Positions 21,444-62,424 of a stretch of 64,000 nucleotides of DNA are shown here, one piece after another. The stretch is from Phormidesmis priestleyi Ana (GTDB lineage Bacteria > Cyanobacteriota > Cyanobacteriia > Phormidesmidales > Phormidesmidaceae). Below the pieces are notes generated by a model. It did not search any database. It saw only the letters and a list, made by a program, of their open reading frames with translations, and was not told the origin of the DNA. The DNA lies in NCBI GenBank assembly GCA_001314865.1, contig LJZR01000001.1, positions 310,001 through 374,000 on the forward strand. Reading direction: 5' to 3'. Each line of letters opens with the position of its first letter. Position 1 is the stretch's first letter. The translations under genes were made by a program, and so were the position numbers.

Positions 21444-21491
21444 GCCACACCTCAGGCCACACCTCAGGCCACATCTCAGGCCACATCTCAG
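21444..21491. repeat. 12-bp tandem repeat, 4 copies, over a stop codon
   Basis: GCCACACCTCAG twice, then GCCACATCTCAG twice. The last copy contains the stop of the LuxR-type gene (21488-21490). Confidence 0.9.
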
Positions 21492-22048
21492 GCCATTAGC
21501 CCATAATCCAGATCATCCTGATGGCTGCGCTGCTTAGCCAAAATGTTTTTGACATGCTTTTTCACCGTATTGGCGCTAATCCACAGCGCGGTCGAAATTT
21601 CGTTATAGTCAGCGCCTCGTAGGCGTAGCTGCCATACTTCAGTTTCTCGCTCTGTGAGGCCAAACAATGCTGCGTCGGATAGGGCTTTGTTACGAATTGT
21701 TTGCTGACGATCTTCCAACACAATCATTAAGTAGGGCGTGTTGGCCAGCTGAATGTTTTGGACGCGAATGCGAATAATGCCAAGGTCAGGCAGGATAATT
21801 TCAGCATCCAGGCCAATTTTTTGAAAGGAGAGAACATCTTGTTTTTTTAGCGCAGACTGACAGAGCCTCCAAAGTTCTGTAGGCAGTGTATTAGCGGTTG
21901 CATTCAAAAGGTTGCAAATGCGCTGGGCAGGTGCGTTGATTTTTTCGATTTCGCCTTTTTGGCTAGCGATAATAAATCCATCCTGTAGCCCTTCTAACGC
22001 AGCACGAAGAATACTGAAATCGGGGGTAGACTTGCGGTCGGTACTCAT
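21488..22048 (-). CDS. PAS-LuxR-type transcriptional regulator
   Basis: A 186-residue regulator. The N-terminal two thirds look like a PAS-type sensor (GLQDGFIIASQKGEIEKINAPAQRICNLL, then a beta-rich part). The C-terminal helix-turn-helix is of LuxR type: LTERETEVWQLRLRGADYNEIS and SANTVKKHVKNILAKQ. There is no receiver domain, so input is likely a small ligand or redox state rather than phosphorylation. It is divergent from the TPR protein, which could be a target. Confidence 0.88.
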   Translation of the reverse strand: MSTDRKSTPDFSILRAALEGLQDGFIIASQKGEIEKINAPAQRICNLLNATANTLPTELWRLCQSALKKQDVLSFQKIGLDAEIILPDLGIIRIRVQNIQLANTPYLMIVLEDRQQTIRNKALSDAALFGLTERETEVWQLRLRGADYNEISTALWISANTVKKHVKNILAKQRSHQDDLDYGLMA

Positions 22049-44328: not shown

Positions 44329-44887
44329 ATTATCTGGGCGATTATAACCTGCCTGACGAACCCCAAAATGGCAGATAAACGACAAAAGGTACCCACAAGG
44401 GGAAGTGCATTTTATACCACAATAACTTGTGCAATCCCTATAGGCAGCCGAGTTTAGAATTGCTATGCTAGCGAAATGAATAAGCAGAACACCGCCTTGG
44501 GCTCACCGATACGATGCCGACAGCGTGAGTTAACTGCTTTTGGAAAAGCTGCTCTGGTAGAAACAACCTGGTAGAGATAAGCAGCAGATGAGTGGCCCGA
44601 TAAAGCGGCCCGACAAAAAGTAAATAGACAGCTAGAACAGCGGCCCAACAAAAACCAGTTTTCTCACTGGCCTATAGTCAAGGGGCTTAGTTTACATTTT
44701 GCAACATTAGTCTGCCAAGCGTAAATTTTTTTAAAAAAAAACAATTTCTGACCCCAAGAAATGTGACAACTATGTCTAGTGTCACATTTTGTTGGGTTTG
44801 GGTAAAAAGTCATCAGCGAACGAAAGAAACAAATAAACAATCAATCAGTCGATCAATCAGTTGGCGAATCAGCAGCTGCATGAATAA

Positions 44888-44965
44888 TCAGCATTGATAT
44901 TCAGCATTGATATTCAGCATTGATATTCAGCATTGATATTCAGCATTGATATTCAGCATTGATAT
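44888..44965. repeat. 13-bp tandem repeat, 6 perfect copies
   Basis: TCAGCATTGATAT is repeated six times without change. Confidence 0.95.
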
Positions 44966-45206
44966 TCAGGCATAGGCGTTGCTATCCTCAAATATCGCGC
45001 CCCTAATATCACCCATAGAGGTAGTACCTCATCACTAGCTGGCACAGTACTCTTAAGATCGCTGTCCTAACTGCTAGTGAAAGCTTTAGGTACGCCAAAA
45101 GATTCTTTTATCTAAGTACCGATGAACCTAGTGGCATATGCCAGTGTGGCTCTTATCAACTTTTCTTGTTTTATGAGTTCATAGAACATCGTTGTTCAAG
45201 TCTTAG

Positions 45207-45303
45207 ATTCAAGTATCAGATTCAAGTATCAGATTCAAGTATCAGATTCAAGTATCAGATTCAAGTATCAGATTCAAGTATCAGATTCAAGTATCAGATT
45301 CAA
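45207..45303. repeat. 13-bp tandem repeat, 7 perfect copies plus a part
   Basis: ATTCAAGTATCAG is repeated seven times without change, then a 6-bp partial copy. Confidence 0.95.
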
Positions 45304-45445
45304 TCGTTCTTAACCACTCTGAACGATGTATCTCAAAAGCATTTCTCAAAACATTTGCCAAGAGCATCTGCTAACAGCATCTGCCAAAAGCATCTGCCAA
45401 AAGCATTTTATATTCCCGTCGTAGCTTCTACCTGTGGTTCCTGTC

Positions 45446-48394
45446 ATGAAACTTTCTTCAACACATTTTCAAGCATTCACTTCGTTTCAAAAAGATAGTA
45501 TCACCCGTCACGAATGCCCCTATATATTGTCTCTTTCACCATTATCTTTGCCAACAAAAACCTTGATGACATTGCTAATGGCTGTGGGTGGGCTCGGTGT
45601 AACCTCAGGGCTAAGTTCGCAACAGGCTACTGCCCAAACAGTCCCTAATATTTCTCGTGATGCCAACACAGGCGCGGTTGAATTAGAGATTAATGCCTTC
45701 AGCATTCGCACGGGAGAGTTTAACAATACTTCTAATATTCCGTTGCCATCTAGCTTGCTTCAAAACATTAGCGAAAACCGCGCACAACCGACAACATCTA
45801 CCATCCTTGCGCCCAACAACATTGAACTTAGTGTTGATACTGAATACATTAATGAGTCTCTTAGAAGCGTTTTAACTCAGCAAACTGGCGATACCAACTA
45901 TCAGCTACAGCCCGACTCATTGAGGGTACAAACTGAGTTTAATCTGCGCCGTAGTGAAGGTAAGCACGCCTTCGGAGAAGGCATTGAAGCCACGGTGTTT
46001 GCCCCCGATGGCAGCGTTATTTCACAAGAGCGAGTATTTGTTAGGGGCGATGATGTGCAGATAGGCCCTGACGGTAATGTCCTTCCCGAAGAACAACAAA
46101 TTACTGTTAGCTACGGCACTCAAGATAGGGTCGAGTTGCGGGTGCTTAATATCCGAGAAAACAACGCCGAGCCGAGCGAGTCAGGCATCTATTTTTTAAC
46201 AGATGGAAGCTTAGCAGTTGAAGATTTACCCAATGGTGGCGACTTAGATTTTAACGATGGTGACTATGTGCAAGTCTCTGGCGGTACAGGCGAAGCAGCT
46301 GTCCTGTCTGAAACCGAAGAAGTTTCAGTAGAAACGGTCAATAACGACGTCCCGCTAGATCCTGAGCAACGCCAGGAAGAAGTGGTTGAAACCGATATTG
46401 CCAGAGGGCTGATCTCAACTGATAGAACTTCGCAAGAAGAGAGAGATTGGGGCCGAGTCGAAACGGCTGATTCAATATCAACTATCCGATTGGGTCATGC
46501 CACGGGCACTCAGACAGAGTCAGGTGAGCAGCTCGTGTATAACCGCTATGCGGCCGCCCGTGAGGTGCGGTTGGGGAGCGATGGCTTAGGGGTGACCGGT
46601 CAGCTATCGCCTTTGATCCAAAATCCCAACATTCCGCCGACGCTATTGACAGGCAATCTTACCTTTAACCCCACGGTGGGTAATAACGAGGCTGGATTAA
46701 CCACCACGGTAGGCGTCACTCAGTTCTTAAATCCGACGCATCAAGTGGCCAGAGATATCTTTGGCAATGAAATAGCGGCTCCGGACGGGGCGGGATTGGT
46801 AGAGCCTGTAGGGATGTTTAGCGATCGCCAATGGATTGGCTATGTGCCAGCCCAGCCCGATCAAACCCTGCGAGGCGATCAGCTGTTTTCGGTGAATGGC
46901 ATCTTTGAGCTGCCTGAAGATAAGGGCATTGAAATCGCACCTCCCGATCCAAACTCAGTCGGTCGCGGGAGAGCTGCCTACACCCGCAACGTGGGCGGAC
47001 TACTGATAGAATTTGCCGCTGGCGATATGACATTTGTGCCCCAGTGGACTGAAACTGGCTACGCGCAAGAATCACTGACGCTAGCCGCAGGTGAGGCGCG
47101 GCGCGTTATCTACGCACTGGTTCCCCAACAGCCCAATCAAGCGCTGCAACTCGGCGATCGCTACGCAGTCACCGACACCGCCAATGGCTACCGAATTGTC
47201 GATGGGGGCTTTACGATTATTTCAGCCGACCGCCAACCGCAAAACTTTCAGATCGAGCAGTCTGACGTGTACGCCGTAGAAGATACCTTGCCTGGGAGCA
47301 ACATGGTGACCGATATTTTCAATGGCGTTCGGGGCGTTTATATTGAAGTTCCTGGCGGTGAGCCCGTCCCCACGGTAGATGTCTCGCTGACTGATGAAGT
47401 GGATGCGCGGGTCGGCAACGCGCTATTTCCGTTAGAAATTATCGAAGGCGATGACGGTCAAATGGGCTATGCCCAAACAACGCGCTCGGCTGGCTTTTAC
47501 CTCGGCAGCACCGCAACTCTCGGCATCGGCAATCAGGAAGATACGGTGCGCCAAGTAGAAACCACCATAGAGCGGGCCACCGATGCCATGATAATGACGC
47601 GCACGGTCACGACCTTTGTAACGCCTTTAATTGCCAGAGAATCATTAGTTAATCAGGTCACTCGCACCACCCGCAGCACTGGCGTAGCTGCCTTTGATAT
47701 CAGCCCTCAAGGTGAGCTAGTCGATGTGCAGTTTATCGCTGATGGGCCTAGTGAAACCACCACCCAACAAACAGAACTAGACCGCACCTTTGATCTCATT
47801 CGTGGCGAAGAGTTTCGGGTGCTTACCGAAACCTCAGAATCGCGACAGGTCATTAGCAGTCAGGAAATTGAACGTGACCAGACAGTAACTGACATAACTA
47901 CAGACAGCTACGCCAACTTTTCCTCGCTACAGGGCGAGTTGTCGCTAGGGAGTGTTCTGAACTGGGGCAATACGCCTTGGACAGCCGCCGCCAATACCGT
48001 CAAAGCGGAGCTGTTTGCCAGAAACACAGTGATTGGCAGATCTACCGACGGCAACGAAACGGGCTGGCGGGCCGAGGTGTTGTTTCATCCTTTTGGCGAA
48101 GTTCAGCGTGAGGCGCATTATTACGATGCGGCAGGCAATGCATTGCCGCTGTATCAAACAGAGGCTGTTATTACGGCTAACGGACAGCAGCAGGTAGAAA
48201 CAGTGACCGCTGCAAATGGGGAGACCGTCGCAGTGCCGATCTATCAGTTTGTGATAGATGAGGCGGGCGATCGCATTGCTCAAACCATCGGAACCGGGCA
48301 AACAAAAGGGCCGGGCATCTATCTACGGATAGAAGACGTATTTAATGACAATCACAGCGCGTTGCTCGCGGGCGGGATTCAGCTAGCGTTTTAA
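45446..48394 (+). CDS. Large exported paralog 1 (surface or outer-membrane protein of unknown family)
   Basis: A 982-residue protein, first of four paralogs. A long leader (about 40 residues before the hydrophobic core) ends at a probable signal site near AQ (QATAQ). Block A (about 65-280) ends in DFNDGDY; an acidic linker with PLDPEQR follows; block B (about 340-690) runs from RLGHATG through TFVPQW, IYALVPQQ and YAVEDT to GFYLGS; a Thr/Glu-rich linker; block C (about 830-982) has NWGNTPWT, FHPFGE and GPGIYLRIED and ends GGIQLAF. The alternating hydrophobics and final Phe resemble a beta-barrel sorting signal. The mature chain has no Cys. It is the most divergent copy. ATG 45446 is used; GTG 45434 is possible. 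Confidence 0.75.
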   Translation: MKLSSTHFQAFTSFQKDSITRHECPYILSLSPLSLPTKTLMTLLMAVGGLGVTSGLSSQQATAQTVPNISRDANTGAVELEINAFSIRTGEFNNTSNIPLPSSLLQNISENRAQPTTSTILAPNNIELSVDTEYINESLRSVLTQQTGDTNYQLQPDSLRVQTEFNLRRSEGKHAFGEGIEATVFAPDGSVISQERVFVRGDDVQIGPDGNVLPEEQQITVSYGTQDRVELRVLNIRENNAEPSESGIYFLTDGSLAVEDLPNGGDLDFNDGDYVQVSGGTGEAAVLSETEEVSVETVNNDVPLDPEQRQEEVVETDIARGLISTDRTSQEERDWGRVETADSISTIRLGHATGTQTESGEQLVYNRYAAAREVRLGSDGLGVTGQLSPLIQNPNIPPTLLTGNLTFNPTVGNNEAGLTTTVGVTQFLNPTHQVARDIFGNEIAAPDGAGLVEPVGMFSDRQWIGYVPAQPDQTLRGDQLFSVNGIFELPEDKGIEIAPPDPNSVGRGRAAYTRNVGGLLIEFAAGDMTFVPQWTETGYAQESLTLAAGEARRVIYALVPQQPNQALQLGDRYAVTDTANGYRIVDGGFTIISADRQPQNFQIEQSDVYAVEDTLPGSNMVTDIFNGVRGVYIEVPGGEPVPTVDVSLTDEVDARVGNALFPLEIIEGDDGQMGYAQTTRSAGFYLGSTATLGIGNQEDTVRQVETTIERATDAMIMTRTVTTFVTPLIARESLVNQVTRTTRSTGVAAFDISPQGELVDVQFIADGPSETTTQQTELDRTFDLIRGEEFRVLTETSESRQVISSQEIERDQTVTDITTDSYANFSSLQGELSLGSVLNWGNTPWTAAANTVKAELFARNTVIGRSTDGNETGWRAEVLFHPFGEVQREAHYYDAAGNALPLYQTEAVITANGQQQVETVTAANGETVAVPIYQFVIDEAGDRIAQTIGTGQTKGPGIYLRIEDVFNDNHSALLAGGIQLAF

Positions 48395-49561
48395 CCAGAA
48401 CGCGTATTTTTGCTAAACATTTCAGTCGAAACGTTTCAATCGTACAGAGATCGGCTTGCATCAATAATCTTAAATCCCCAAAAAACGGCCCCATCGACTG
48501 AATCTGTCATGAACCACTGGTTACAAAAAGCAACTTTTTTAAGTGATCTCACTGACAAGAAAACCGACCAAAAGCTTACTCAAGAAGGGCTTATCGCACA
48601 GCCTCCGACCACTACATAGCGAGCCTAAAGAATCCTTTCAATCCTCATACAGAAAGACTTTGGGGCTTTAGATCAGTCAATTTCAGCAACTGTAAACCAA
48701 AAGGATGAAGCGAGGCCTTACTAAAAAAAACACAACGTAAAGAAAACATAAAGCTGTGAGAGTAAACACTGAGAGCACGATAGTTTTTTACTAAGCCACC
48801 TTAGCAAGTGTCCAATGTTCATCCGTTTACGCCTGATATATGAAATAGAGGGTCTGATTTGGCCTGTTCCCTCAAGCATATTCCCTCAAACCTGACCTTC
48901 CTAAAGCATCCCTTTCAGGGTCTGTTATCGATTGATGAGTTTCTAAACCTTGTGCTTCTAAAATGCTCATCAAACGCTAAAAAGATCTATTCACAGTCAT
49001 CTAGGAGTCATCTAAAGGAGAAGAGTAACGTCCTTAATGATAATGATCGCGTTTTAGGAAGCGGAGTGCCCTAACAATGTCTAACAATGTTCTAAAAATG
49101 TTTGGTTTGGTGCTGTAAAGAAGCCTGGTGTCGTAACAACAGACATCAACCAAGGTATCAACGATGCTAGCGCAAGATGCTAAAGGAATAGTTGATACAA
49201 GTATCTCAACATAAACAAAAATTAGTTTGATTCTCAGTACTTTTTCCAAATCGCTAAAGCAACGACCAGAACACTTGAGATGATCTGGTTTCAAGGCTTT
49301 GGCCAGTGTGAATGTAGGTCAATTCAGCTGTTTAGCCACTATGCATGAATTTTAAGAACATGAAGAGTTTGAGTTGAATGCTGATAGTTTCGCGCAGATA
49401 TACAGCTGATGAACCGGCCTTAACGAGCGTTAAAAATGCTGGATTAGGTAATATTTTCAGCCACTACATCGCCTAGACGGAAAAGGCTAGCGCGTCAAAA
49501 AATGCTATCAGCCACAGATTGCTGTAAGAAAAATAACTCAGTAATATCTAGGAGTGGTCGC

Positions 49562-49639
49562 ATGAATCTTTTACCAGTATCTTCAGTCTACTCAGTAAAT
49601 ACAGCGGCTTCTAATTCAGTAAAGTCCTCTACTAAGTAG
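49562..49639 (+). CDS. Candidate 25-aa peptide ORF upstream of paralog 2
   Basis: ATG 49562 follows AGGAG by seven bases. The peptide is Ser/Val/Asn-rich (MNLLPVSSVYSVNTAASNSV...), without a membrane segment. Could be a leader peptide or chance. Confidence 0.3.
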   Translation: MNLLPVSSVYSVNTAASNSVKSSTK

Positions 49640-49713
49640 TTCCACAGGTAACAAATGCACGTTGCACTCTACCGATGTCTGTTTGGAACATGCATCCGCA
49701 GCTTTTAGAGCCC

Positions 49714-49799
49714 CCACCTGCTGCTCTACCGACCCACCTGCTGCTCTACCGACCCACCTGCTGCTCTACCCACCTGCTGCTCTACCGACCCACCTGCTG
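49714..49799. repeat. 20-bp tandem repeat, about 4.5 copies
   Basis: CCACCTGCTGCTCTACCGAC is repeated; the third copy lacks the last 4 bp. Confidence 0.9.
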
Positions 49800-49878
49800 A
49801 AGCGCTGAACTTGCTCAAGCATTTTGCCGCTACCTCCTTACAAGCCTGCAAGCCTTTACTTGTCCTGAAAATCAAACT

Positions 49879-52818
49879 ATGCATTCACCTCTTCGTCCCA
49901 CCTTTATTTCTAAGCTAGCCGCTCAACCACCTCAAGATTCGGCGAACAGTCTGTCTGCTGATTCGCTTTTCGTGGCTCGCCTGTTTCAGCTCAACGCCAT
50001 CACCCGTCAGTTGACCGCGCTGCTTTTGGCAGTTGGAGGGCTGTGCCTCGGCGGACAAAGTGCGATCGCCCAGGTCACGATCAATCGTGATCCCAGCACA
50101 GGCGCTGTTTTTATTGATCAAAACGCCTTTGACGTCCGCACAGGCGAGCTAACCAACACCTCAAATATTCCGCTCCCATCCGAGCTACCCACTGTCATCA
50201 GAGAGGGCATCGCGATTCCGACCGAATCTGGCGGTCTGCTGGCTCCTAATAGCCTAGAAATCACCACTGATATTGATTTTGTGGAACAGTCTTTTAACGA
50301 GCAACTCAATCAGCAGCAGGGCACCAATCTAGACTACGACTTGGATCGGGATACCGTGACTACGCGCACCCGGTTCGACCTTAACTATGTCCCAGGCGAT
50401 CACGCTTTTGGGGAAGGCATTCAGGTCACGGTCTTTGATGAAAATGGCTCCATTAAGTCTCAAGAGACTCGCTTTGTCAGAGGGGATACCGTCGTGCGCG
50501 GCCCGGATGGCAACGAACTGCCTAATTCAGGCAATATCACAGTTGAGTACGGGGTTGGTGAAAGAGTCGAGCTCCGCATCCTCAACCTACGAGACAACGA
50601 TGCAACAGAAATATCAGAGTCTGGCGTTTACTTTACCCGAAATGGGCAAATCATTGCAGAGGACTTTCCCGATGGCGGTGACAGAGACTTTAGTGATGGC
50701 GAATATGTTGAGCTAGCCGATAGCCAGGGCCGAGCCAATGCGATCGAGCGTGATACGCAAGAGGAGCAAGTGGTAGAGACCGACACTACACCGCTAGACC
50801 CTGAAATACGACGCGATGAAGCAGTTGAAGAAGAGGAATTCACCACTGTAGAACGCGACGAACAAGTCGTCAGAGAAGTGATTGAGCGCGGCAGCATAGA
50901 AGTGCCCGACACGCTAGCAACTCGACTAGGCCACGCAGTCGGGCTGCGGACCGAGAACGACGAACTACTGGTATACGATCGCTACTCAGCCGCCGGACAG
51001 GTGCGAGCCGGCAGCGATGGACTCGGTGCCACCGGACAGCTACGCCCGCTATTTAACAACCCCAGTGCGCCCCCAACACTGCTCACTGGCAGCGCCCTGT
51101 TCAACCCTTGGGCCGACGATAACGAGGCTGGTTTTGCAGCCAGCGTCGGCATTACTCAGTACTTGAACCGTACACACCGGCAAGCCACAGACCTCTTTGG
51201 CAACCCTATTGAAAACCCCAATCCAGAGGGTGCCATTCCACTAGAGCCCACAGGACTGTTTAGCAATCGTCGGATGGTGGGCTATGTACCCAGTGGCCCT
51301 TTGGCAGGCGATCAAATTCTGCCTTTAGACGGCATCTTTACACTGCCTGATAGTCAGAGAATTTTGATTGATCCGCCCGATCCTCAGGCAGTTGGCCGAG
51401 GTGACTCAGCTTATACCGACAACGTTGGTGGGTTCATTGTTGAATCGGCGAGCGGTGAACTGACGTTTGTACCCCAGTGGACTAACGAAGGTTACGCGAC
51501 AACCGACACTGTACTTGAGCCTGGAGAAGCCACTCGAATTATCTATGCGCTCGTGCCTCAGCAGGCCGGCCAAAACTTACAACTCGGCCAGTCTTACGCA
51601 GTCGATAACAGTACGGGCAGGTATCGCATTACCGACGGTGGATTTGTGGTGATCGCCGCCGATCAGTACCCGGACAACTTTTTTGCCGAAACCACCGATG
51701 TGTATACCGTAGAAGATACGCTGCCCACTATTGACAATGCCGCAACGCCTGACTTTAACGGCATTCGAGGTTTGTATATAGAGGTGCCAGGGGGTGAACT
51801 AACACCTACGGTCGATCCGAATATCCCATCGGAAGCAGATGCTCGGGTGGGAACGGTACTATTCCCTGAGGTGCTCGGTCAGCGGCCCTATGCACGGACG
51901 ACGGTAGCTGGCGGACTATATCTAGGCGGCTCACTCACTGGGGGATTTGGCAATCAACGTGATTTGATCAATGAGGTGCGTACCACGACCGAAACTGAAA
52001 CCGATCAGCAGCGCACGACGCGAACTGTCACCACGTTTAGAACGCCTGTTAATCAAGTCAATACAACGAGCTTTACGAATGTCAGCGTGTTAGAGCGCAG
52101 TGGAAATGCCTCTTTTATCATCAACAGCGATGGTTTGCTAGAAGAGGTTGCGTTTAACCCGACTTCTGATGCTGAGGTGGTTGATACCAGACGCGAATCG
52201 GTTCAAGAGTCTATCACTACTGAACTGGGCGAAGAAGAAGTAATTGAGACAGCCGTTGTCGAAGAGGATATCGTTGATTTGAGATCTCGCAGCAATGTGG
52301 TTGAGCAAGACAGTTCTAGCCGCTCGGATAGTTATGCCAACGCTTCGCCAATTAACGGTGAAATTGCCTTTGGCGGTGTGCTGAACTTTGGGAATACCCC
52401 TTGGACACCAGCGGCCAACCTCATACGAGCTGAGCTGTTTGCCCGAGACACTGTGATTGGTCGAGGTGGCGACGGCTCTGAAGCGGGCTGGAGAGCAGAG
52501 CTCATGCTGCATCCTTTTGGCGAGGTTAAGCGTGAAGCCTACCAGTATGACGAAGCCGGCAATGTGGTTCCAGTGTACAAAACACAGCCTTTCTTAGATG
52601 AAAACGGCAATCGGGTCGTTGTGACTGAAACCGGCCCCAATGGCGAAACGGTGGAGATAGAAAGAGGCGAGTTTATGCTGGATGAGTCGGGCGATCGCAT
52701 TCCCGAACGAGTCGGCACAGGTAAGCCCAAAGGCCCCGGTTTATATGTTCGTTTAGAAGACGCTTGGGATGATGGTGATAGTGCAGTGATAGATGGCGGC
52801 ATTCAGTTCTCTTTCTAA
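49879..52818 (+). CDS. Large exported paralog 2 (surface or outer-membrane protein of unknown family)
   Basis: A 979-residue paralog with the same three-block plan. The leader is about 67 residues, ending QSAIAQ, where Ala-Ile-Ala is encoded by a HIP1 octamer. Block B carries RLGHAVGLRTEN, TGSALFNPWADDNEAGFAA, TFVPQW and IIYALVPQQ; block C has NFGNTPWTPAAN, HPFGEVKREAYQYDE and ends GGIQFSF. The first linker has PLDPEIRRDE; both linkers are Glu/Thr-rich. The only Cys is inside the signal peptide. No Shine-Dalgarno is seen. Its stop codon begins a 13-bp tandem repeat. Confidence 0.77.
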   Translation: MHSPLRPTFISKLAAQPPQDSANSLSADSLFVARLFQLNAITRQLTALLLAVGGLCLGGQSAIAQVTINRDPSTGAVFIDQNAFDVRTGELTNTSNIPLPSELPTVIREGIAIPTESGGLLAPNSLEITTDIDFVEQSFNEQLNQQQGTNLDYDLDRDTVTTRTRFDLNYVPGDHAFGEGIQVTVFDENGSIKSQETRFVRGDTVVRGPDGNELPNSGNITVEYGVGERVELRILNLRDNDATEISESGVYFTRNGQIIAEDFPDGGDRDFSDGEYVELADSQGRANAIERDTQEEQVVETDTTPLDPEIRRDEAVEEEEFTTVERDEQVVREVIERGSIEVPDTLATRLGHAVGLRTENDELLVYDRYSAAGQVRAGSDGLGATGQLRPLFNNPSAPPTLLTGSALFNPWADDNEAGFAASVGITQYLNRTHRQATDLFGNPIENPNPEGAIPLEPTGLFSNRRMVGYVPSGPLAGDQILPLDGIFTLPDSQRILIDPPDPQAVGRGDSAYTDNVGGFIVESASGELTFVPQWTNEGYATTDTVLEPGEATRIIYALVPQQAGQNLQLGQSYAVDNSTGRYRITDGGFVVIAADQYPDNFFAETTDVYTVEDTLPTIDNAATPDFNGIRGLYIEVPGGELTPTVDPNIPSEADARVGTVLFPEVLGQRPYARTTVAGGLYLGGSLTGGFGNQRDLINEVRTTTETETDQQRTTRTVTTFRTPVNQVNTTSFTNVSVLERSGNASFIINSDGLLEEVAFNPTSDAEVVDTRRESVQESITTELGEEEVIETAVVEEDIVDLRSRSNVVEQDSSSRSDSYANASPINGEIAFGGVLNFGNTPWTPAANLIRAELFARDTVIGRGGDGSEAGWRAELMLHPFGEVKREAYQYDEAGNVVPVYKTQPFLDENGNRVVVTETGPNGETVEIERGEFMLDESGDRIPERVGTGKPKGPGLYVRLEDAWDDGDSAVIDGGIQFSF

Positions 52819-52862
52819 AAAGCCATACTAAAAGGCCACATTAAAAGGCCACATTAAGAGCC
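52816..52862. repeat. 13-bp tandem repeat starting with the stop of paralog 2
   Basis: TAAAAAGCCATAC, then TAAAAGGCCACAT twice, then a partial copy. The first TAA is the stop codon. Confidence 0.9.
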
Positions 52863-52864
52863 GT

Positions 52865-52888
52865 AGGGACGTAAGCAGTTACGTCCCT
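52865..52888. terminator. Hairpin between convergent paralog 2 and GT4 genes
   Basis: AGGGACGTAA and TTACGTCCCT pair perfectly around a 4-nt loop. The right arm contains the GT4 stop. It probably serves both directions, though T-runs are weak. Confidence 0.6.
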
Positions 52889-54063
52889 TCCTGAATACAG
52901 CGATGAATTAGCCTGCTGTATTTTTGGCCGCAGGTTTTAAGCGAGAGTCGTTCGATCTGGGCCATTGATGCTCTCGATTTTGCCAGTAATCTTTTGGGCT
53001 TTTGAAAATGATTGACAATGGCTTCAGATAGCGCAGCGGCTGAGTCTGTTTCTACTAGGTCGCCATACTGGCCATCTGCCAAAATTTCCCTTGGTCCTGC
53101 CACACAGTCTGTGGCAATAGTCGGCACGCCTAGCGCAGCAGCTTCTGCAACCACCAGGCCAAATCCTTCGTAGCGCGACGATAAACAAAAAAGCGACGCC
53201 TGAGACAAAATTGGATAAGGATTTGCCACAAAGCCTAAAAAAGCGACGCTATCAGCCACGTTCCAATCTCTGGCCAACTCTAGTAACGCCCGATGGGCCT
53301 CTCCTTCTCCGACTAAAACTAATCGATGCTGAATACCTTGCCTGCGCACCTTAGCATGGGCTTCAATCAGTAGGTCAAACCCTTTTTGATTGGCAAGACG
53401 GCCAATGCCAACGATAAAAGGAATATCGTCGTTGACATAGGGCCATGGGGCACTGGGCTGCTGAGCTAGGGCTCGAACTTGCGCAATATTAATTCCGTTA
53501 GAAATTGCTACAATTTTGCTCCGCTTTACTTCTAACTCAATCGTGCTGATCAGATCTTGGCTCGTGCATACAATCGCTTTTGCCCTGGCATAGGCCCATC
53601 GGCGGATCATTTGGGTGCCCTTTTTTTTGCCATAGTCAGCCTGAGATCTTTTCAGATTGTTTTGCACAATCGCGACAACAGGCTTACGGAAAAAAAAAGC
53701 AACTAAACTGGGTAGCAAAAGACCATTTTCCCAGGTAAGAATCACCACATCCGACCTTGAGACCGACCGCATGAGTTTAGATAACAGCGTGGGTAGTGAT
53801 TTTAAAGTAGAGCTATTCTCTCTAATTGCAGTGCTAATCTTAATAGGCTTGTGAGGCAGCTGAGGATGAACGGATCGCTGTTGAACCGCAAAAATTTCAA
53901 CTTCCATGTTCTTGAGCGACAGCTGTTCTGCAATATTAATGCTAAAGGTGACAGCACCGTTTCGATAAAAGGCTGGAAGTACAAATAAAACCTTGGGCGA
54001 TCGCGCCGAAGGCTGATTAGAAATATTAGATAAGGACGTTTCAAGAGAAGCGTTTTGAAGCAT
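52879..54063 (-). CDS. Family 4 glycosyltransferase
   Basis: A 394-residue GT-B enzyme that would move a sugar from a nucleotide donor to a lipid carrier, polysaccharide or protein. The N-terminal acceptor part starts KVLFVLPAFYRNGAVTFSINIAEQL; the donor part has GIGRLANQKGFDLLIEAHAKV and the EX7E region SRYEGFGLVVAEAAALGVPTI. AGGA precedes ATG 54061-54063. It is alone on the minus strand, between paralogs 2 and 3. Whether it glycosylates the paralogs is not shown by anything but position. Confidence 0.92.
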   Translation of the reverse strand: MLQNASLETSLSNISNQPSARSPKVLFVLPAFYRNGAVTFSINIAEQLSLKNMEVEIFAVQQRSVHPQLPHKPIKISTAIRENSSTLKSLPTLLSKLMRSVSRSDVVILTWENGLLLPSLVAFFFRKPVVAIVQNNLKRSQADYGKKKGTQMIRRWAYARAKAIVCTSQDLISTIELEVKRSKIVAISNGINIAQVRALAQQPSAPWPYVNDDIPFIVGIGRLANQKGFDLLIEAHAKVRRQGIQHRLVLVGEGEAHRALLELARDWNVADSVAFLGFVANPYPILSQASLFCLSSRYEGFGLVVAEAAALGVPTIATDCVAGPREILADGQYGDLVETDSAAALSEAIVNHFQKPKRLLAKSRASMAQIERLSLKTCGQKYSRLIHRCIQEGT

Positions 54064-54625
54064 ATACCATTCATCCTAATGATTCCAACGATCATTATTT
54101 GGGAATTTCTTGCATAGGAGAACAGATATTGACAATACACTATACTATCAATACTTATTTTCACAGAGTTTACAACATTTTGCTCATTTTCTTTTAATTC
54201 TATTTTGTTTTTATTTTTTAGCTTCAGTTGTGTGCTGTAACTTGTCTTCATTGACGCCTGTCCTATACATCTTTCAGTACAAAAAATCCTCTTTTTTTGT
54301 TTTTTTATACAGGCACGCAAGCACCCTCTTCTTTTTATACAAGAGATAGTTTTATACCGGCCTATAACCGAGAGATAAAGGTTGCAAAGTGAGCATGCAA
54401 GGGCTTTACTTGTCTGTGAGTATGCGCCTTCTCTATAGACAATATTCAACAATGTGAAGTTTCTAAACTAATTGAATCAATCATTTTTGTTGAAAACAAC
54501 TGAGCTTAAAGGGTTTGGCGTTTTTTTCCTTTTTTTCCCTGTTGCTTTCTCAAATAAAACAACAGGGAATATGTTTTTACTGATGAAGTGTGTAATTAGT
54601 TATTTGTTTCTTGAAATCTACTACT
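54064..54625. other. AT-rich gap between GT4 and paralog 3
   Basis: About 560 bp with long T- and A-rich runs (for example 54175-54330), clearly richer in AT than its surroundings. Divergent promoters are expected here. No gene is credible; frames at 53802-54452 (minus) and 54472-54744 (plus) lack start signals. Confidence 0.6.
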
Positions 54626-57601
54626 ATGACAACGACCCAGCCCAAATGGAGACAATCTCAGATCGGAGCCTCCAGAACTCACTTTATTCATGTTCTTTTC
54701 CGTATGCTCAAAGACGGTCTGTTCCATCCTTTCTTAATTCCTAGGGTCATTGCCGTGTTTTTATCGGCGGGCGGGCTGTATGCGGCTAGTGAAGGATTAA
54801 TAGGACGAGGTGCGATCGCTCAGATCGTCAACCGCGATCCCGTCACAGGCGCGGTCACTGTTGATCGCAACGCCTTCCAATTGCAGACAACTGACCTTGG
54901 TAACGACAGCGGCATCGGTCTGCCAACAGACTTGCCCGAGAGCGTTGGGGAAAAAATTGTGATTCCCGTCGAGCCGGAGAGACAGGCGCCTAACGGCATT
55001 ATCTTAAGGATCGATCAGCAATATATCGAAGATAACTTCAGCGTTCCGAACTCAACGGCAACCTACACGCTCGACGGCGACTCTATCCGCGCCAATGCGT
55101 TTTTTGAACTCGATACCCAAGAAGGCTCCCATCGCTTCGCAGAAGGGCTAGAAGTAATTATTCGCGACAGCCAAAACAACGAAATTGGGGTTCCTCTAGT
55201 TGAATTTGTCAGAGGCAGTTTTGATGAACTCGATGTTCTAAGAGTGCAAGATGCCAATGGGAACATCATAAACCTCTCAGATGTTGAGGTCATTCGCACC
55301 GAATCGTTTGGGCCTAACGATTCGGTGCAGGTGCGCGTACTCCATATAGAAAGCGATGGCGCGCCGCTATCGGCCGCGTCAGAATCAGGCGTTTACTTTA
55401 CCCGTGACGGTCAGCTAATTGCCGAAGATTCGGACGACAACGACTTTGATGATGGAAACTACCTCAATAGCGTGACCGGAGAAGGTAGCGCAGATGCCGT
55501 TGCCTCGGTGAGCAGCCGAGAAAGCGCTAACTTAGAAGAAACCCAAGAACTAGAACCTGAATTGCGAACAGAGGAAACCGTTCTTGAGCAGGAGACGGTG
55601 ACCACCACAGAAGTAGCGAGTGACGTGATCTCAGAAGAGCGAGTTCGCGGCAGTATTGAAACGCCCGATCCGAACGCGATGCGGCTAGGTCATGCAGTCG
55701 GTGTGCGCACCGAAAATGATGAACAGCTCGTATACAACCGCTACGGGGGCACTGTTCAACTTCGGGCGGGGAGCGATGGCCTCAGTGCCGCCGCACAGCT
55801 CCCGCCCTTAATTGGCAATCCCAATGTCCCGCCAACCCTACTGACCGGTGAGCTGAATTTTAATCCTTGGGTCAGCGACAACGAAGCCGGTTTGTCGGCT
55901 ACCGTTGCGGTGACGCAGTTTTTAACCCGGACTCATCACATCGCCACAGATGCTTTTGGCAACACAATTGAAAACCCAGCGCCCAGAGGATCTAGGCTAG
56001 TTGAACCGACTGGACTATTCAACAATCGGCGGCTAGTGGGCTATGTACCGGCTGTCGTCGGGGTGGATGCCGACGATGCGCAGCTCTCTTCTCAAGCAGG
56101 CATTTTTAATTTGCCAGCCGATCAGGCAGTGGTCATCAAGCCCTTGGGCGCAGGGCAAGTGGGTGCCGGGGACGCGGCCTATGAGCGCAATGTGGGCGGC
56201 TATATCATTGAAAGAACTGATGGCAGCATGACCTTTGTACCGCAGTGGACAGAAGCTGGCTATGCTCAAGACGATATTACGCTCGCAGCCGGTGAAGCCG
56301 CCCGTATTATCTATGCGCTAGTGCCTCAGCAAGCAGGCCAAAATCTCCAGGTAGATCAGCGCTATGAGGTCACCACTGGGCCAAGCGGCTACCAAATTGT
56401 TGATGGTGGCTTTAGAATTATTTCTGCCGATAGGCAACCGCAGAACTTTTTACGCGAAATGGCTGAGGTATATGCGGTAGAAGATACGGTGCAGGGAAGC
56501 AATGCGGCCACGCCTGAATTTAATGGCGTGCAGGGCACCTACATTACCAATGGCCAACTGATGCCAACGGTCGATATTAATTTACCTAACGCGGCAGATG
56601 CTAGGGTCGGCAATGAAGTGTCGTTGCTGACGGCGGCGAATCCTCAGCCGGGGCAGGCAGCTTATGCCAGAACCACCCGAGCAGCCGGTTTTTACCTGGG
56701 GGGATCGTTCACGGGCGGCATTGGCAACCAGCGAGATACCATCCAGCAAAGGCTGGCGACTTCTACTATAGAAACTGACCAGCAGCGCACAACGCTGGCT
56801 GTCAATCAGTTTTTAACTCCCCTGACTCAAGTGAGCTTTATCCGCCGAGACCGGTTGACCACAACCGACACGCCAGGCACTGCTCGATTTGATATCAGTG
56901 CAGCTGGTGAATTAGAGAATACGCGGTTTGAGTCTACTGATGAACAGCTAGCAGCCGCAACCACTAACGTGAGTTTCGATGTGTTGTCTACCGAGACCGA
57001 GATTACAGCAGGTGAGGAAGAACAGATTGAATCGACCACTAACACTCAGGTGGAGGTCTTAGCGCGCCGGGAGGTGGCTAGCGATGAAACAGCGGTCAGT
57101 GGGTCAGACAGCTATGCCAATGCTTCACCTGTGCAGGGAGAAATTGCTTTGGGCGGCGTGCTGAACTTTGGCAACACGCCTTGGACACCCGCTGCGAATA
57201 CCGTTAGAGCCGAGCTGTTCTTTAGAGACACTGTGATTGGCCGGGGAGGCAGTGGTTCAGAAACGGGCTGGCGAGCTTCGCTGATGTTCCATCCGTTTGG
57301 CGAGCGCCAGCGGGAGGCGTATCAGTACGATGAGTTTGGCAATGTGGTGCCGCTGTATAAAACAGAGGCGGTGCGAGATGCCAATGGGGTTCAGGTCATG
57401 GAAGAAGTCGTAGCCGCCGATGGCAGCCGGGTGATGCTGCCAGTGAATCGGTTTGTCATAGATGAGCTAACAGGCGATCGCATTCCCCAAACTGTTGGCA
57501 CAGGGCGCTCTCAAGGCCCTGGCCTATATGTTCGCGCGCAGGATACCTGGGACGACGACGACAGTTTGGCCGTTGATGGCGGCGTTCAGCTCTCCTTTTA
57601 G
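54626..57601 (+). CDS. Large exported paralog 3 (surface or outer-membrane protein of unknown family)
   Basis: A 991-residue paralog. The leader of about 66 residues ends GRGAIAQ, again with HIP1 encoding Ala-Ile-Ala. Block A is shorter in matches than in the others; block B has RLGHAVGVRTEN, GELNFNPWVSDNEAGLSAT, TFVPQW and IIYALVPQQ; block C has NFGNTPWTPAANTVRAELF and FHPFGERQREAYQYDE and ends GGVQLSF. The first linker motif is ELEPELRTEE. No Cys at all. ATG 54626 is used; TTG 54611 would add five residues. A strong terminator follows. Confidence 0.77.
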   Translation: MTTTQPKWRQSQIGASRTHFIHVLFRMLKDGLFHPFLIPRVIAVFLSAGGLYAASEGLIGRGAIAQIVNRDPVTGAVTVDRNAFQLQTTDLGNDSGIGLPTDLPESVGEKIVIPVEPERQAPNGIILRIDQQYIEDNFSVPNSTATYTLDGDSIRANAFFELDTQEGSHRFAEGLEVIIRDSQNNEIGVPLVEFVRGSFDELDVLRVQDANGNIINLSDVEVIRTESFGPNDSVQVRVLHIESDGAPLSAASESGVYFTRDGQLIAEDSDDNDFDDGNYLNSVTGEGSADAVASVSSRESANLEETQELEPELRTEETVLEQETVTTTEVASDVISEERVRGSIETPDPNAMRLGHAVGVRTENDEQLVYNRYGGTVQLRAGSDGLSAAAQLPPLIGNPNVPPTLLTGELNFNPWVSDNEAGLSATVAVTQFLTRTHHIATDAFGNTIENPAPRGSRLVEPTGLFNNRRLVGYVPAVVGVDADDAQLSSQAGIFNLPADQAVVIKPLGAGQVGAGDAAYERNVGGYIIERTDGSMTFVPQWTEAGYAQDDITLAAGEAARIIYALVPQQAGQNLQVDQRYEVTTGPSGYQIVDGGFRIISADRQPQNFLREMAEVYAVEDTVQGSNAATPEFNGVQGTYITNGQLMPTVDINLPNAADARVGNEVSLLTAANPQPGQAAYARTTRAAGFYLGGSFTGGIGNQRDTIQQRLATSTIETDQQRTTLAVNQFLTPLTQVSFIRRDRLTTTDTPGTARFDISAAGELENTRFESTDEQLAAATTNVSFDVLSTETEITAGEEEQIESTTNTQVEVLARREVASDETAVSGSDSYANASPVQGEIALGGVLNFGNTPWTPAANTVRAELFFRDTVIGRGGSGSETGWRASLMFHPFGERQREAYQYDEFGNVVPLYKTEAVRDANGVQVMEEVVAADGSRVMLPVNRFVIDELTGDRIPQTVGTGRSQGPGLYVRAQDTWDDDDSLAVDGGVQLSF

Positions 57602-57662
57602 GCCTTGCTTTTGCTAGGTTGCGTCCTTTAAAGAACAATACAGGTTAGCTTTCAGGCGATAG

Positions 57663-57695
57663 GCGATTTTCTGAGTACTCAGAAAATCGCTTTTT
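57663..57695 (+). terminator. Intrinsic terminator of paralog 3
   Basis: A perfect 28-bp palindrome (57663-57690; each half is GCGATTTTCTGAGT or its complement) is followed by T5. Confidence 0.85.
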
Positions 57696-57741
57696 CTATG
57701 TTTGCTTCTATGCTTTCCTCTATGTTTGCCTCTATGTTTGT
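57694..57741. repeat. 12-bp tandem repeat, 4 copies
   Basis: TTCTATGTTTGC and variants repeat four times directly after the terminator of paralog 3. Confidence 0.85.
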
Positions 57742-57967
57742 GATTGTTGTCACTGCTGAAATTTTATTTTTTCTGTTTTTTCAGCAACATTATAAATTCA
57801 ACAACATGAAGATTCAAAATATTTTGGTTTGGCTATATTAGGCCATATTGACTGATACTGAAGGGTTTTACGGTTTCTTTGGCAAAGTGAGGCTGAAAAA
57901 CTATACGGAAAGCGTTTTTATTGCAGAACTATGTAGGTGACATCGTATCTTTTATAGGAGATCTGCC

Positions 57968-60934
57968 ATGACGCTTCTATCCCTAAAACACACTGCACAG
58001 CCAGCGCTTAAGCAGTTTGGTACTACGCGATTCAGGCTGTCTTCTTTGCTTGAAACCAATATTTCTATGCCTCAGCTCATGGCAGCGCTGTTGACTACAG
58101 GTGGGCTCGGGCTGACCCATCAAAGTAGTGCGATCGCCCAGGTTACAATCAACCGCGATGCCGTGACGGGAGCCGTTCGCGTCAACCAAAATGTTTACAC
58201 CATTGATACCGGGAGCCTCACCAACAGCTCAAACATTCCACTGCCCGCTCTACTGCCCGCCGATACCGACTTTGGTAATCCCATTCGCGTCACTGAAGAT
58301 GGACGGCTCGCACCTAATAGCATCATTCTAGGCACTAACGCTAACTACATCAGAGACAATTTTACCAATACTATCAACGGCAATTCGCCAGGGCCTACTT
58401 ACCAGATACAAGAAGGCACAATCAGCATTACCACCTCGCTAAATCTGAGGCAAGTACCGGGGCAACATGCCTACGGTGAAGGGATTCGAGTGCGGGTGCT
58501 GGATGCTAACAACAATGTGAATCCCAATGCAGTGGTGACCGATGGTAACGGGCAGGTGATCACCCAGATATTTATTCGAGGCGATGACGTCACCGTTGGG
58601 CCTAACGGCCAGCCATTGAATTCTGAAGAATTGCTGTTTGTCACCTACCAAGAAGGCGAAAGGGTTGAAATTCAGATGCTGAACATTCGAGAAAATAATG
58701 CAGCTGAAAGTGAATCAGGGGCTTATTTTTCTAGTGATGGTCGGGTAATTGTTGAAGATTTTGAAAATGGGGGTGACCGAGACTTTGACGATGGTGACTA
58801 CTTTAACCTGCGAGTGGGTTCAGGAGAAGCGATCGCCCTCGAAGAAGATACCCGCACCGCCTTTAGCACCCGCACGGATGAGACACCCCTAGAAGCGGAA
58901 ACCCGGCGCGAAAGCATCGCTGTCGAAGATACGATAGAAACCGTTATCGAAGCCTCAGGCGATATCACCACCGAAGATAGAATTTGGGGGAGCGTCGAGA
59001 TTGTCGGCGACACAACGACCCGCTTAGGTCATGCAACGGGCACACGCACAGAAGATGGTAAACAGCTGGTGTATAACCGCTACGCCAGTACGGCTCAGTT
59101 ACAGGCGGGTAGCGATGGCATTAGCGCAGCCGGGCAGCTCGCCCCCATCAACCTTTCTCCGAGTGCGCCACCGACGCTACTGACTGGCAAACTCGCCTTT
59201 AATCCGTGGGTAGATGACGGGCAGGCAGGCTTTGTTGCTTCAGCGGGCGTTACGCAGTTTTTAAACCGAACGCATCAGATCGCCCAAGATGCGCTAGGCA
59301 ACCCCATTGTCAATCCTAATCCCGCTGGCCCCAGGCTACTAGAGCCTGCTGGGCTACTCAGCAATCGCCGGTTTGTGGGCTACGTGCCAGCTAGTACAAA
59401 CACAACAACCCTGCAAGGCGAGCAGCTGACTTCGATAGACGGTGTGTTTAACTTGCCAGCCGACCGAGACTTGGTTATTTCACCGCCCAATCCTCGAAGC
59501 GTAGGCCCTGGCAACGCAGCCTACACCGACAATGTAGGCGGTTTAATCATTGAACAAACCAACGGTAGCAAAGTTTTTATTCCACAGTGGTCTAAAGCAG
59601 GCTACGAATCTGCTCCAATCACCTTAGAAGCCGGAGAAGCCACCCGGATTATCTACGCATTGGTGCCTCAGCAAACCGGGCAACAACTGCAACTGGGCCA
59701 ACGGTATGAGGTAACGAGCAGCGCGACGGGCGATCGCATCACCAACGGCGGATTCTTGATTATCTCTGCTGACCAACAGCCCCAAAACTTTTTGCAAGAG
59801 GCCACTGAAATATACGCGGTAGAAGATACGCTGCCGATTGGGAATGCGGTCACCGAACAGTTTAACGGGGTACAAGGCGTCTATGTTCAAGCACCGGGGC
59901 AACGACCCATACCTACGGTAGATCTCACGCTAAGCGGCCAGGCCGACGCCAAAGTAGGAAATGCCCTCTATCCAATGCTTGCGGGCGAGGGAGATCCGGG
60001 CCAACGGGCCTATGCTCGCACCACTCGGGCCGCTGGCTTCTACCTGGGCGGATCACTCACAGGCGGCATTGGCAATCAGCGCGATACCATTAACCAACAA
60101 ACGGCTACCTTAGAAACCGCCACCGACCAGCGGCGCATTGAACAAACAATCAACACTTTTTTAACCCCGATTACTCAAGTTGACGAAACCACCGTAGAAA
60201 CCACAGAGACCATTCAAAGCACCGGACGTGCGACCTTTGCCATTGACGGTAACGGGCAGCTAGCCAATGCGGCCTTTACCCCTTTTACAACAGAAGTGAT
60301 TGCCGCTAGCAGTCGTGATCTAGAAACCACAACTACTCGCCAAAGCGGCGAAGAAGTCCTGGCCGATTCAACAACGCAAACCGCTATGCAGATTTTAGGA
60401 ACTCGGGTGAATGTGGTAGAACAAGATGCCACGACCAACCGCAGCAGCTATGCCAATGTTTCTCCTTTGCAGGGAGAAATCGCCCTTGGCGGGGTGCTGA
60501 ACTTTGGCAATACGCCCTGGACGCCAGCGGCAAATACGCTCAGGGCCGAGCTGTTTTTACGGGATACCCTCATTGGTCGCAGCAGCCGCGAGGCTCAAAC
60601 AGGGTGGCGAGCCGCCCTGACGTTTCATCCGTTTGGAGAACAGCAGCAGCAGGCATACCAATATGATGAATCGGGTGAGGCAGTGCCGCTGTACAAAACC
60701 GAGCCAGTACTAGATGAAGCGGGCAATCAACTCGTAGAGCAGCGAGTTACCGCCGACGGCAAGGAAGTCTTGCTGCCGGTCAATCGATTTGCCTTGGATA
60801 GCTCGGGTCAGCGCATTGCTCAAACCGTAGGGACTGGGCGCGCTAATGGGCCTGGGCTATATGTACGATTACAGGATATTTGGAACTCCAGTGGCGGTGT
60901 CACCGTCGATGGCGGCGTTCAGTTCTCTTTTTAA
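57968..60934 (+). CDS. Large exported paralog 4 (surface or outer-membrane protein of unknown family)
   Basis: A 988-residue paralog. ATG 57968 is the only start among the four with a clear Shine-Dalgarno (AGGAGA). The leader of about 58 residues ends SSAIAQ, with HIP1 at the Ala-Ile-Ala codons. Block B has RLGHATGTRTED, GKLAFNPWVDDGQAGFVAS, VFIPQW and IIYALVPQQ, and GFYLGGSLTGGIGNQRDTIN; block C has NFGNTPWTPAANTLRAELFLRDT and FHPFGE and ends GGVQFSF. The linker motif is PLEAETRRES. No Cys. Its stop lies in a 13-bp tandem repeat. Confidence 0.78.
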   Translation: MTLLSLKHTAQPALKQFGTTRFRLSSLLETNISMPQLMAALLTTGGLGLTHQSSAIAQVTINRDAVTGAVRVNQNVYTIDTGSLTNSSNIPLPALLPADTDFGNPIRVTEDGRLAPNSIILGTNANYIRDNFTNTINGNSPGPTYQIQEGTISITTSLNLRQVPGQHAYGEGIRVRVLDANNNVNPNAVVTDGNGQVITQIFIRGDDVTVGPNGQPLNSEELLFVTYQEGERVEIQMLNIRENNAAESESGAYFSSDGRVIVEDFENGGDRDFDDGDYFNLRVGSGEAIALEEDTRTAFSTRTDETPLEAETRRESIAVEDTIETVIEASGDITTEDRIWGSVEIVGDTTTRLGHATGTRTEDGKQLVYNRYASTAQLQAGSDGISAAGQLAPINLSPSAPPTLLTGKLAFNPWVDDGQAGFVASAGVTQFLNRTHQIAQDALGNPIVNPNPAGPRLLEPAGLLSNRRFVGYVPASTNTTTLQGEQLTSIDGVFNLPADRDLVISPPNPRSVGPGNAAYTDNVGGLIIEQTNGSKVFIPQWSKAGYESAPITLEAGEATRIIYALVPQQTGQQLQLGQRYEVTSSATGDRITNGGFLIISADQQPQNFLQEATEIYAVEDTLPIGNAVTEQFNGVQGVYVQAPGQRPIPTVDLTLSGQADAKVGNALYPMLAGEGDPGQRAYARTTRAAGFYLGGSLTGGIGNQRDTINQQTATLETATDQRRIEQTINTFLTPITQVDETTVETTETIQSTGRATFAIDGNGQLANAAFTPFTTEVIAASSRDLETTTTRQSGEEVLADSTTQTAMQILGTRVNVVEQDATTNRSSYANVSPLQGEIALGGVLNFGNTPWTPAANTLRAELFLRDTLIGRSSREAQTGWRAALTFHPFGEQQQQAYQYDESGEAVPLYKTEPVLDEAGNQLVEQRVTADGKEVLLPVNRFALDSSGQRIAQTVGTGRANGPGLYVRLQDIWNSSGGVTVDGGVQFSF

Positions 60935-62322: not shown

Positions 62323-62424
62323 AGCCAAAACTACTAGCCAAAACTACTAGCCAAAACTACTAGCCAAAACTACTAGCCAAAACTACTAGCCAAAACTACT
62401 AGCCAAAACTACTAGCCAAAACTA
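62323..62424. repeat. 13-bp tandem repeat, 7 copies plus a part
   Basis: AGCCAAAACTACT is repeated seven times without change, then an 11-bp part; decayed AGCCAAAGAC-like copies lie to the left. Confidence 0.93.

Follow-up and report, generated by a model that had tools for sequence, protein, structure and literature searches.

Four paralogous genes of 979 to 996 codons, all on the positive strand by open reading frame (ORF) calls, span positions 45434 to 60934 of a 64,000-nucleotide stretch of the Phormidesmis priestleyi Ana genome (assembly GCA_001314865.1, contig LJZR01000001.1, positions 310,001 to 374,000; hereafter the window). The reading that we tentatively favor, from their sequences and structural models, is that they encode surface lectins or adhesins composed of a barrel anchor, a beta-ribbon stalk, and a Ca2+-dependent sugar-binding tip. 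Each product would be exported to the outer membrane and anchored there by its C-terminal half, a predicted beta-barrel of about 10 to 12 strands (a count taken from mediocre models). The N-terminal domain, a DUF4114-like module that probably binds sugars in a Ca2+-dependent manner, would be carried off the cell surface by a thin beta-ribbon stalk of about 50 residues, or roughly 15 nm, made of a barrel hairpin and the acidic strand following the N-terminal domain; the tip of the hairpin would belong to the tip domain. In the manner of autotransporters, the protein would pass its N terminus to the outside through its own barrel, and it would serve in adhesion to sheath or other polysaccharide. 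Between the tandem copies, tips and shafts have diverged and the barrel is conserved, which could provide a set of specificities. Sidedness, self-delivery, surface display, and the nature of the ligand are the parts of this proposal that we infer.

To our knowledge, little is known about the display of adhesins by filamentous cyanobacteria. If the proposal is true, these proteins would allow surface display to be tested in a setting other than the proteobacteria that usually serve as models, and annotators would gain a name for them.

Four paralogs of a family absent from searched libraries

End-to-end alignment of the four copies gave identities of 46 to 49% to copy 1, and the other three copies were 48 to 52% identical to copy 4 (E values from 8e-292 to 1e-271), which excludes chance similarity. 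The block motifs listed in an earlier note on this DNA, made from the sequence alone, are present in all four copies, the small exceptions being YTVEDT and LHPFGE in copy 2, and every copy ends in GG[IV]Q[FL][SA]F. The same note called the genes tandem paralogs. Four related genes do lie in line, but with interruptions: between copies 2 and 3 is a glycosyltransferase gene on the negative strand, and copies 1 and 2 are about 1.5 kb apart, with no ORF longer than 86 amino acids in the gap. A search of the 5.93-Mb genome found no family members beyond these four.

No known family matched the whole length of the proteins in profile searches, and there was no whole-length match in Pfam, NCBIfam, PHROGs, or PDB sequences, in agreement with the earlier description of the family as unrecognized. 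We attribute to chance the weak single-member Pfam matches (DUF6335, RHS_repeat, DUF1214, and DUF4245) and two matches in NCBIfam; the RHS_repeat match fell in the YD-rich segment of 1 of 17 members (E value of 0.022). Neither the libraries searched nor the literature searches on DUF4114, LecB, or cyanobacterial autotransporters yielded a description of the family. It is new in the sense that no searched library recognizes it; the kinds to which it would belong, a barrel-anchored surface protein and a DUF4114-like module, are themselves known.

Export signal and predicted barrel

Copy 4, whose residue numbers are used throughout, was modeled with AlphaFold2 in full (17 sequences; mean predicted local distance difference test score, pLDDT, of 69.5; predicted template modeling score, pTM, of 0.38) and as residues 342 to 988 (19 sequences; mean pLDDT of 69.8; pTM of 0.50). 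A barrel and an export signal are well supported by sequence features and by these models. Hydropathy profiles showed a hydrophobic core in all four window copies, and a cleavage-type motif was found in all 17 aligned members (strict A-x-A in 15, V-x-A in 2), in line with the exported family proposed earlier. A C-terminal phenylalanine with alternating hydrophobic residues is the Omp85/BAM sorting pattern of outer membrane barrels; the final residue is phenylalanine in 13 of the 17 aligned members and leucine in the other 4. Ten candidate strands between residues 375 and 988 had, on family average, one face with a hydropathy of at least 1.3 and another of at most -0.08. Both faces were polar in six segments of the stalk arms subjected to the same alternation analysis. 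Strand boundaries of the C-terminal half were nearly identical in the two models, and mean identity reached 68% over residues 830 to 890.

Structural comparison pointed to the same kind of fold. For the model of residues 342 to 988, the 50 VIA matches listed were all outer membrane or outer-envelope barrels by title, with many repeats (e.g., FadL); the best was TamA (Z of 8.4, 160 aligned residues, root mean square deviation [rmsd] of 4.8). The top ten VIA matches of the full model were again all such barrels, the best being the NalP autotransporter translocator (Z of 9.7, 190 aligned, rmsd of 5.0). Strand alternation, the C terminus, and the barrel fold matches thus each support the outer membrane barrel suggested in the earlier note; the predicted fold contains a barrel, and export-signal features are present. 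We assign the kind, an outer membrane barrel, and not the family, because no single barrel family stands out and the Z values are modest.

Several observations count against a barrel. Both models are mediocre, with pLDDT below 60 in the center of the shaft and in the linker at residues 341 to 380. The best Z values are only slightly above the 7 to 8 that VIA's own note gives as typical of models lacking a clear match; Foldseek gave no match at an E value of up to 0.001 for either model. Of the 10 strands, just 2 exceed 95% of shuffles, the candidate strand at residues 366 to 372 does not alternate, and equally alternating stretches occur in the N-terminal domain (e.g., at 118, 152, and 196) and in one strand of the inserted domain. 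Because soluble parts alternate too and few strands beat shuffles, alternation alone is weak evidence.

A relation to pore-forming toxins was considered and rejected. The top Foldseek matches were leukocidins, aerolysin, and other pore-formers (rmsd values mostly above 35 Å, E values of 1e-3 or weaker); we ascribe them to the long hairpin, which resembles any long beta-hairpin.

The N-terminal domain is likely DUF4114-like

Sequence profiles and models make the N-terminal domain likely to be DUF4114-like and lectin-like, with a putative Ca2+ loop, although it is not a filed DUF4114 member. In the loop, E263, D264, D272, F273, D275, and G276 are invariant in all 17 members, and D270 is nearly so. 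The P. priestleyi Ana genome also has four DUF4114-type ORFs with the same acidic pattern, and three of them score above the Pfam cutoff. When the domain profile was compared by hhalign with 28 DUF4114 domains of related genomes, the probability was 91.9% over 32 columns; three other protein regions used as controls gave 0.1 to 0.3%, and the highest value among 30 column shuffles was 1.0%. The 28 rows were identical with or without motif-based row selection. VIA matches for residues 113 to 287 included the Ca2+ lectins thrombocorticin, CV-IIL, and LecB (Z of 4.1 to 5.1), as well as the YomS phage protein (Z of 5.4) and carbohydrate-binding modules.

Two results speak against this assignment. 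Copy 1 scored 17.8 bits (E value of 0.0065), below the 27-bit Pfam cutoff for DUF4114 (PF13448), and the other three window copies had no Pfam match to it; at E values of up to 0.5, Pfam found DUF4114 in 7 of the 17 members (best E value of 4.4e-4). Nor are the LecB matches specific to this domain, since LecB was among the Foldseek matches of the model without the region; taken by themselves, the fold matches of this domain are not convincing.

In a study of Myxococcus, DUF4114 in PilY1.1 is tied to Ca2+ and polysaccharide-dependent motility and is likened to PA-IIL/BclA lectins (PMC9109919). The DUF4114 domain of an Acanthamoeba protein is described as a mannose-binding domain on the strength of mannose-resin and cell binding (PMC11934332).

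Many related cyanobacteria encode DUF4114 proteins: at E values of up to 1e-9 they occur in 25 of 38 genomes (P. priestleyi Ana counted), and their open frames reach 4243 codons. Two styles of acidic loop seem to exist among them, a short one (ED..GGGD) and a longer one (ED...SD).

A hairpin that may form a stalk

In both models, a hairpin extends over residues 687 to 846, with its center near residue 762 and arms reaching about 75 to 80 residues from the barrel; its outer part (residues 704 to 833) is polar on both faces except at the tip. With a periplasmic C terminus, strand parity would place the hairpin outside and the insertions at 436 to 686 and 887 to 962 inside. Tip residues 731 to 800 had a pLDDT of 76 to 91 when the N-terminal domain was modeled with them and of 46 to 59 when it was left out, a drop that suggests packing of the tip against the N-terminal domain.

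The stalk strand at residues 287 to 340 (mean identity of 30%, mean net charge of -10.5) and both hairpin arms are the least conserved parts after the signal peptide, at 23 to 36% identity versus 52 to 68% in the barrel blocks. The tip, by contrast with this variability, is exactly 10 residues long in all 17 members, and the outgoing arm has 49 residues in 12 of them and 53 in the other five, which form one clade. Because the sequence is variable and the length fixed, a beta-ribbon fits better than a floppy linker. The charges of the three stalk strands, about neutral in the middle one and acidic in the outer two, are suggestive only. From one clade difference and two mediocre models, we infer a beta-ribbon stalk.

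Some features fit this stalk and its outward course poorly. The returning arm varies in length (67 to 71 residues, and 71 to 73 in the five-member clade), and the covariation of arm lengths rests on a single clade. Correlations between arm lengths (r of 0.84 to 0.94) were discarded, as they reflect that one clade difference and their P values are meaningless. Moreover, with 10 strands in the model, the N-terminal domain would lie outside only if the linker threads the pore.

The most specific form of the proposal is an interleaved, self-secreting architecture, in which the hairpin would reach about 15 nm outward, pair with the strand leaving the Ca2+-lectin, and complete the lectin at the tip, with tandem amplification diversifying binding. 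We regard this model-based form as doubtful. An interleaved stalk, with anchor, stalk, and head in one polypeptide, would be new if true.

Alternative readings

The chief rival, in our judgment unlikely, is an outer membrane channel or uptake porin, with the N-terminal lectin-like domain and the inserted domains placed in the periplasm, where they would handle carbohydrate or another ligand, and no surface adhesin involved. FadL, TodX, AlgE, and porins match the C-terminal model no worse than other barrels do, and residues 501 to 622 of the inserted domain are among the best conserved (mean identity of 62% in the 17 members), above the N-terminal domain (44%). With ten strands and a periplasmic C terminus, the barrel would also begin on the periplasmic side, where the N-terminal domain would then lie by default. 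However, parity puts the hairpin outside, and its tip is confident only with the N-terminal domain present, which implies that the two are on the same side; nor was a conserved transport-gene partner seen, the flanks differing between most loci.

The barrel could also be real and the stalk an artefact of prediction, the Thr/Glu-rich stretches being flexible linkers and the N-terminal domain an independent passenger. A shaft pLDDT as low as about 45, the 23 to 36% identity there, the variable returning arm, and models built on only 17 to 19 sequences would all agree with this. We nevertheless consider it quite unlikely, as the outgoing arm and tip show no length changes within clades despite their low identity, which would be unusual for a flexible linker, and both predictions give the same hairpin register. 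A secreted sheath or S-layer-like structural protein with no membrane barrel would account for the acidic, Thr-rich, lysine-poor composition and the sporadic, decaying, lineage-restricted distribution, and soluble beta domains alternate too; the C-terminal signature and the consistent barrel fold matches make it very improbable.

Distribution and amplification

Judged from sequence searches, the family is narrow, patchy, and decay-prone. Matches were found in 12 of 63 genomes of Phormidesmidaceae, the family to which P. priestleyi Ana belongs (its own genome counted). Nine of these 12 carry an uninterrupted copy; the other three have an in-frame stop (G001), a frame-broken copy with fragments (G390), or only 32 C-terminal residues (G014). 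A class-wide sample gave 12 matching genomes of 388, one of them outside the family (G185); two candidates were scored per genome, so copy counts are lower bounds. A C-terminal profile matched only the P. priestleyi Ana genome (1 of 386) in a phylum sample that evidently lacks other known holders and is therefore little informative. The frame-broken copy (L025, G390:C270; the two labels are taken as one record because their frame lengths agree), near which lies an extra 39-residue fragment, suggests gene loss. In another genus, a relic consisting of the last 32 to 33 codons stands alone beside other genes (L011/L040, G014:C6:61145-61243) and is, by eye, nearest to the LEGE 07170 copy.

All 13 loci in a named genome collection, including Leptolyngbya, Nodosilinea, cf. 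Phormidesmis, and Oscillatoria CS-180, were cyanobacterial by title, so the restriction to cyanobacteria raised in the earlier note held there; the clustering raised with it is not usual. Among five multi-copy genomes, the copies are adjacent in two (four in P. priestleyi Ana, two in Leptolyngbya BC1307) and on separate contigs, where linkage would not be visible, in the other three.

The earlier note's suggestion of amplification in place was borne out by the tree and the flanks. Copies 2, 3, and 4 form one clade (support of 99/99), and copy 1 clusters with two from L. foveolarum (91/94). The right flank, a HAD hydrolase gene and/or carB, is common to the window locus and three other genomes. 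At this position BC1307 has two tandem copies followed by the HAD gene; in L. foveolarum a single copy precedes carB, a minimum count, as the contig ends just upstream; and G005 has HAD and carB with no copy. The copy number here is thus 0, at least 1, 2, or 4. On the left, the genomes compared have no immediate flank in common; a window gene at 21491-22048, about 23 kb upstream of the cluster, has a counterpart about 3 kb upstream of the BC1307 copies.

No conserved operon partner was found across all loci compared, only subsets having common flanks: TatC and RodZ-like genes adjoin three Nodosilinea-type copies, and creatininase and DUF7469 genes adjoin two others (Pfam was run on one copy's surroundings in each case).

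Features of the locus

Coordinates are collected in Table 1. The gene next after copy 4 encodes a HAD-type hydrolase. Copies 3 and 4 are probably separate transcripts because a terminator-like hairpin lies between them; terminator-like sites in the region are not enriched over shuffles.

A 216-amino-acid ORF with no Pfam match (53802-54452) overlaps the start of the glycosyltransferase gene. The second gene upstream of the cluster (41191-43551, positive strand) encodes a 786-amino-acid protein with an N-terminal caspase-type domain (Peptidase_C14; E value of 2.6e-11). Short tandem repeats make up 40 rows across the window, several with 13-base units and often intergenic (e.g., 44884-44969, 45195-45303, 49713-49799, and 62323-62424); rows overlap where an array has two periods. 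Phase variation through upstream repeats was rejected, since arrays flank several copies but similar ones occur window-wide. A mobile-element origin was likewise set aside after a plasmid search without a match and a viral-contig search without a relative.

Table 1. Positions of the four genes, their neighbors, and the parts of paralog 4 (window coordinates)
Feature	Position	Strand	Remarks
Paralog 1	45434..48394	+	986 aa from GTG; 982 aa from ATG at 45446, start equally possible
Paralog 2	49879..52818	+	979 aa
Glycosyltransferase (group 1/4) gene	52879-54063	-	between copies 2 and 3
Paralog 3	54611..57601	+	996 aa from TTG; 991 from inner ATG
Terminator-like hairpin	57661..57692	+	14 pairs and T run; between copies 3 and 4; consensus match
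Paralog 4	57968..60934	+	988 aa; copy used for modeling
Signal peptide, residues 1-56	57968..58135	+	long N-region, hydrophobic core ~37-51, A-x-A motif
N-terminal beta-sandwich domain, DUF4114-like, residues 58-286	58139..58825	+	pLDDT mostly 80-90; profile-profile match
Putative Ca2+ loop E-D-x(n)-D-x-D-F-x-D-G, residues 263-276	58754..58795	+	conservation
Acidic Thr/Glu-rich predicted stalk strand, residues 287-340	58826..58987	+	model strand 280-339, confident to ~310
Four candidate membrane strands, residues 375-431	59090..59260	+	alternation, both models
Conserved inserted domain, residues 436-686	59273..60025	+	beta fold in models; periplasmic side inferred from strand parity
Candidate membrane strand into hairpin, residues 687-703	60026..60076	+	alternation, model
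Long polar beta-hairpin, residues 704-833	60077..60466	+	both models; tip 753-763 length-invariant; extracellular by parity
Three candidate membrane strands, most conserved block, residues 834-886	60467..60625	+	alternation
YD-rich inserted segment, residues 887-962	60626..60853	+	models; periplasmic by parity
Last two candidate strands and C-terminal sorting-type signature, residues 963-988	60854..60934	+	

Comparison with known systems

Like type Va autotransporters such as NalP, the best full-model match, the family has a predicted signal peptide, an N-terminal passenger-like domain, and a predicted C-terminal barrel, mostly with an aromatic end. Unlike them, it has large insertions in the barrel half (residues 436-686, 704-833, and 887-962), with a hairpin apparently in the stalk, and no beta-helix passenger is predicted; no autotransporter family appeared among the Pfam matches of the 17 members at E values of up to 0.5 or in NCBIfam. 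FadL/TodX, TamA, AlgE, and other outer membrane barrels resemble residues 342 to 988 in fold (Z of 5.9 to 8.4) but differ in having no sequence match, only 4 to 11% identity in structural alignments, and none of the large insertions.

With DUF4114 and the LecB/PA-IIL fold, the N-terminal domain has in common the Ca2+-loop pattern E-D...D-x-D-[FY]-x-D and a predicted beta-sandwich; it falls below the Pfam cutoff, the similarity to DUF4114 covers 32 columns only, and the rest of its sequence is unlike known members. The PilY1 tip adhesins of Myxococcus ride type IV pili, whereas no PilY1 domain match was found by Pfam in the 17 members. The likeness lies in the placing of a DUF4114 module on a surface structure, for which Ca2+-dependent polysaccharide binding is proposed in Myxococcus (PMC9109919, PMC13190605).

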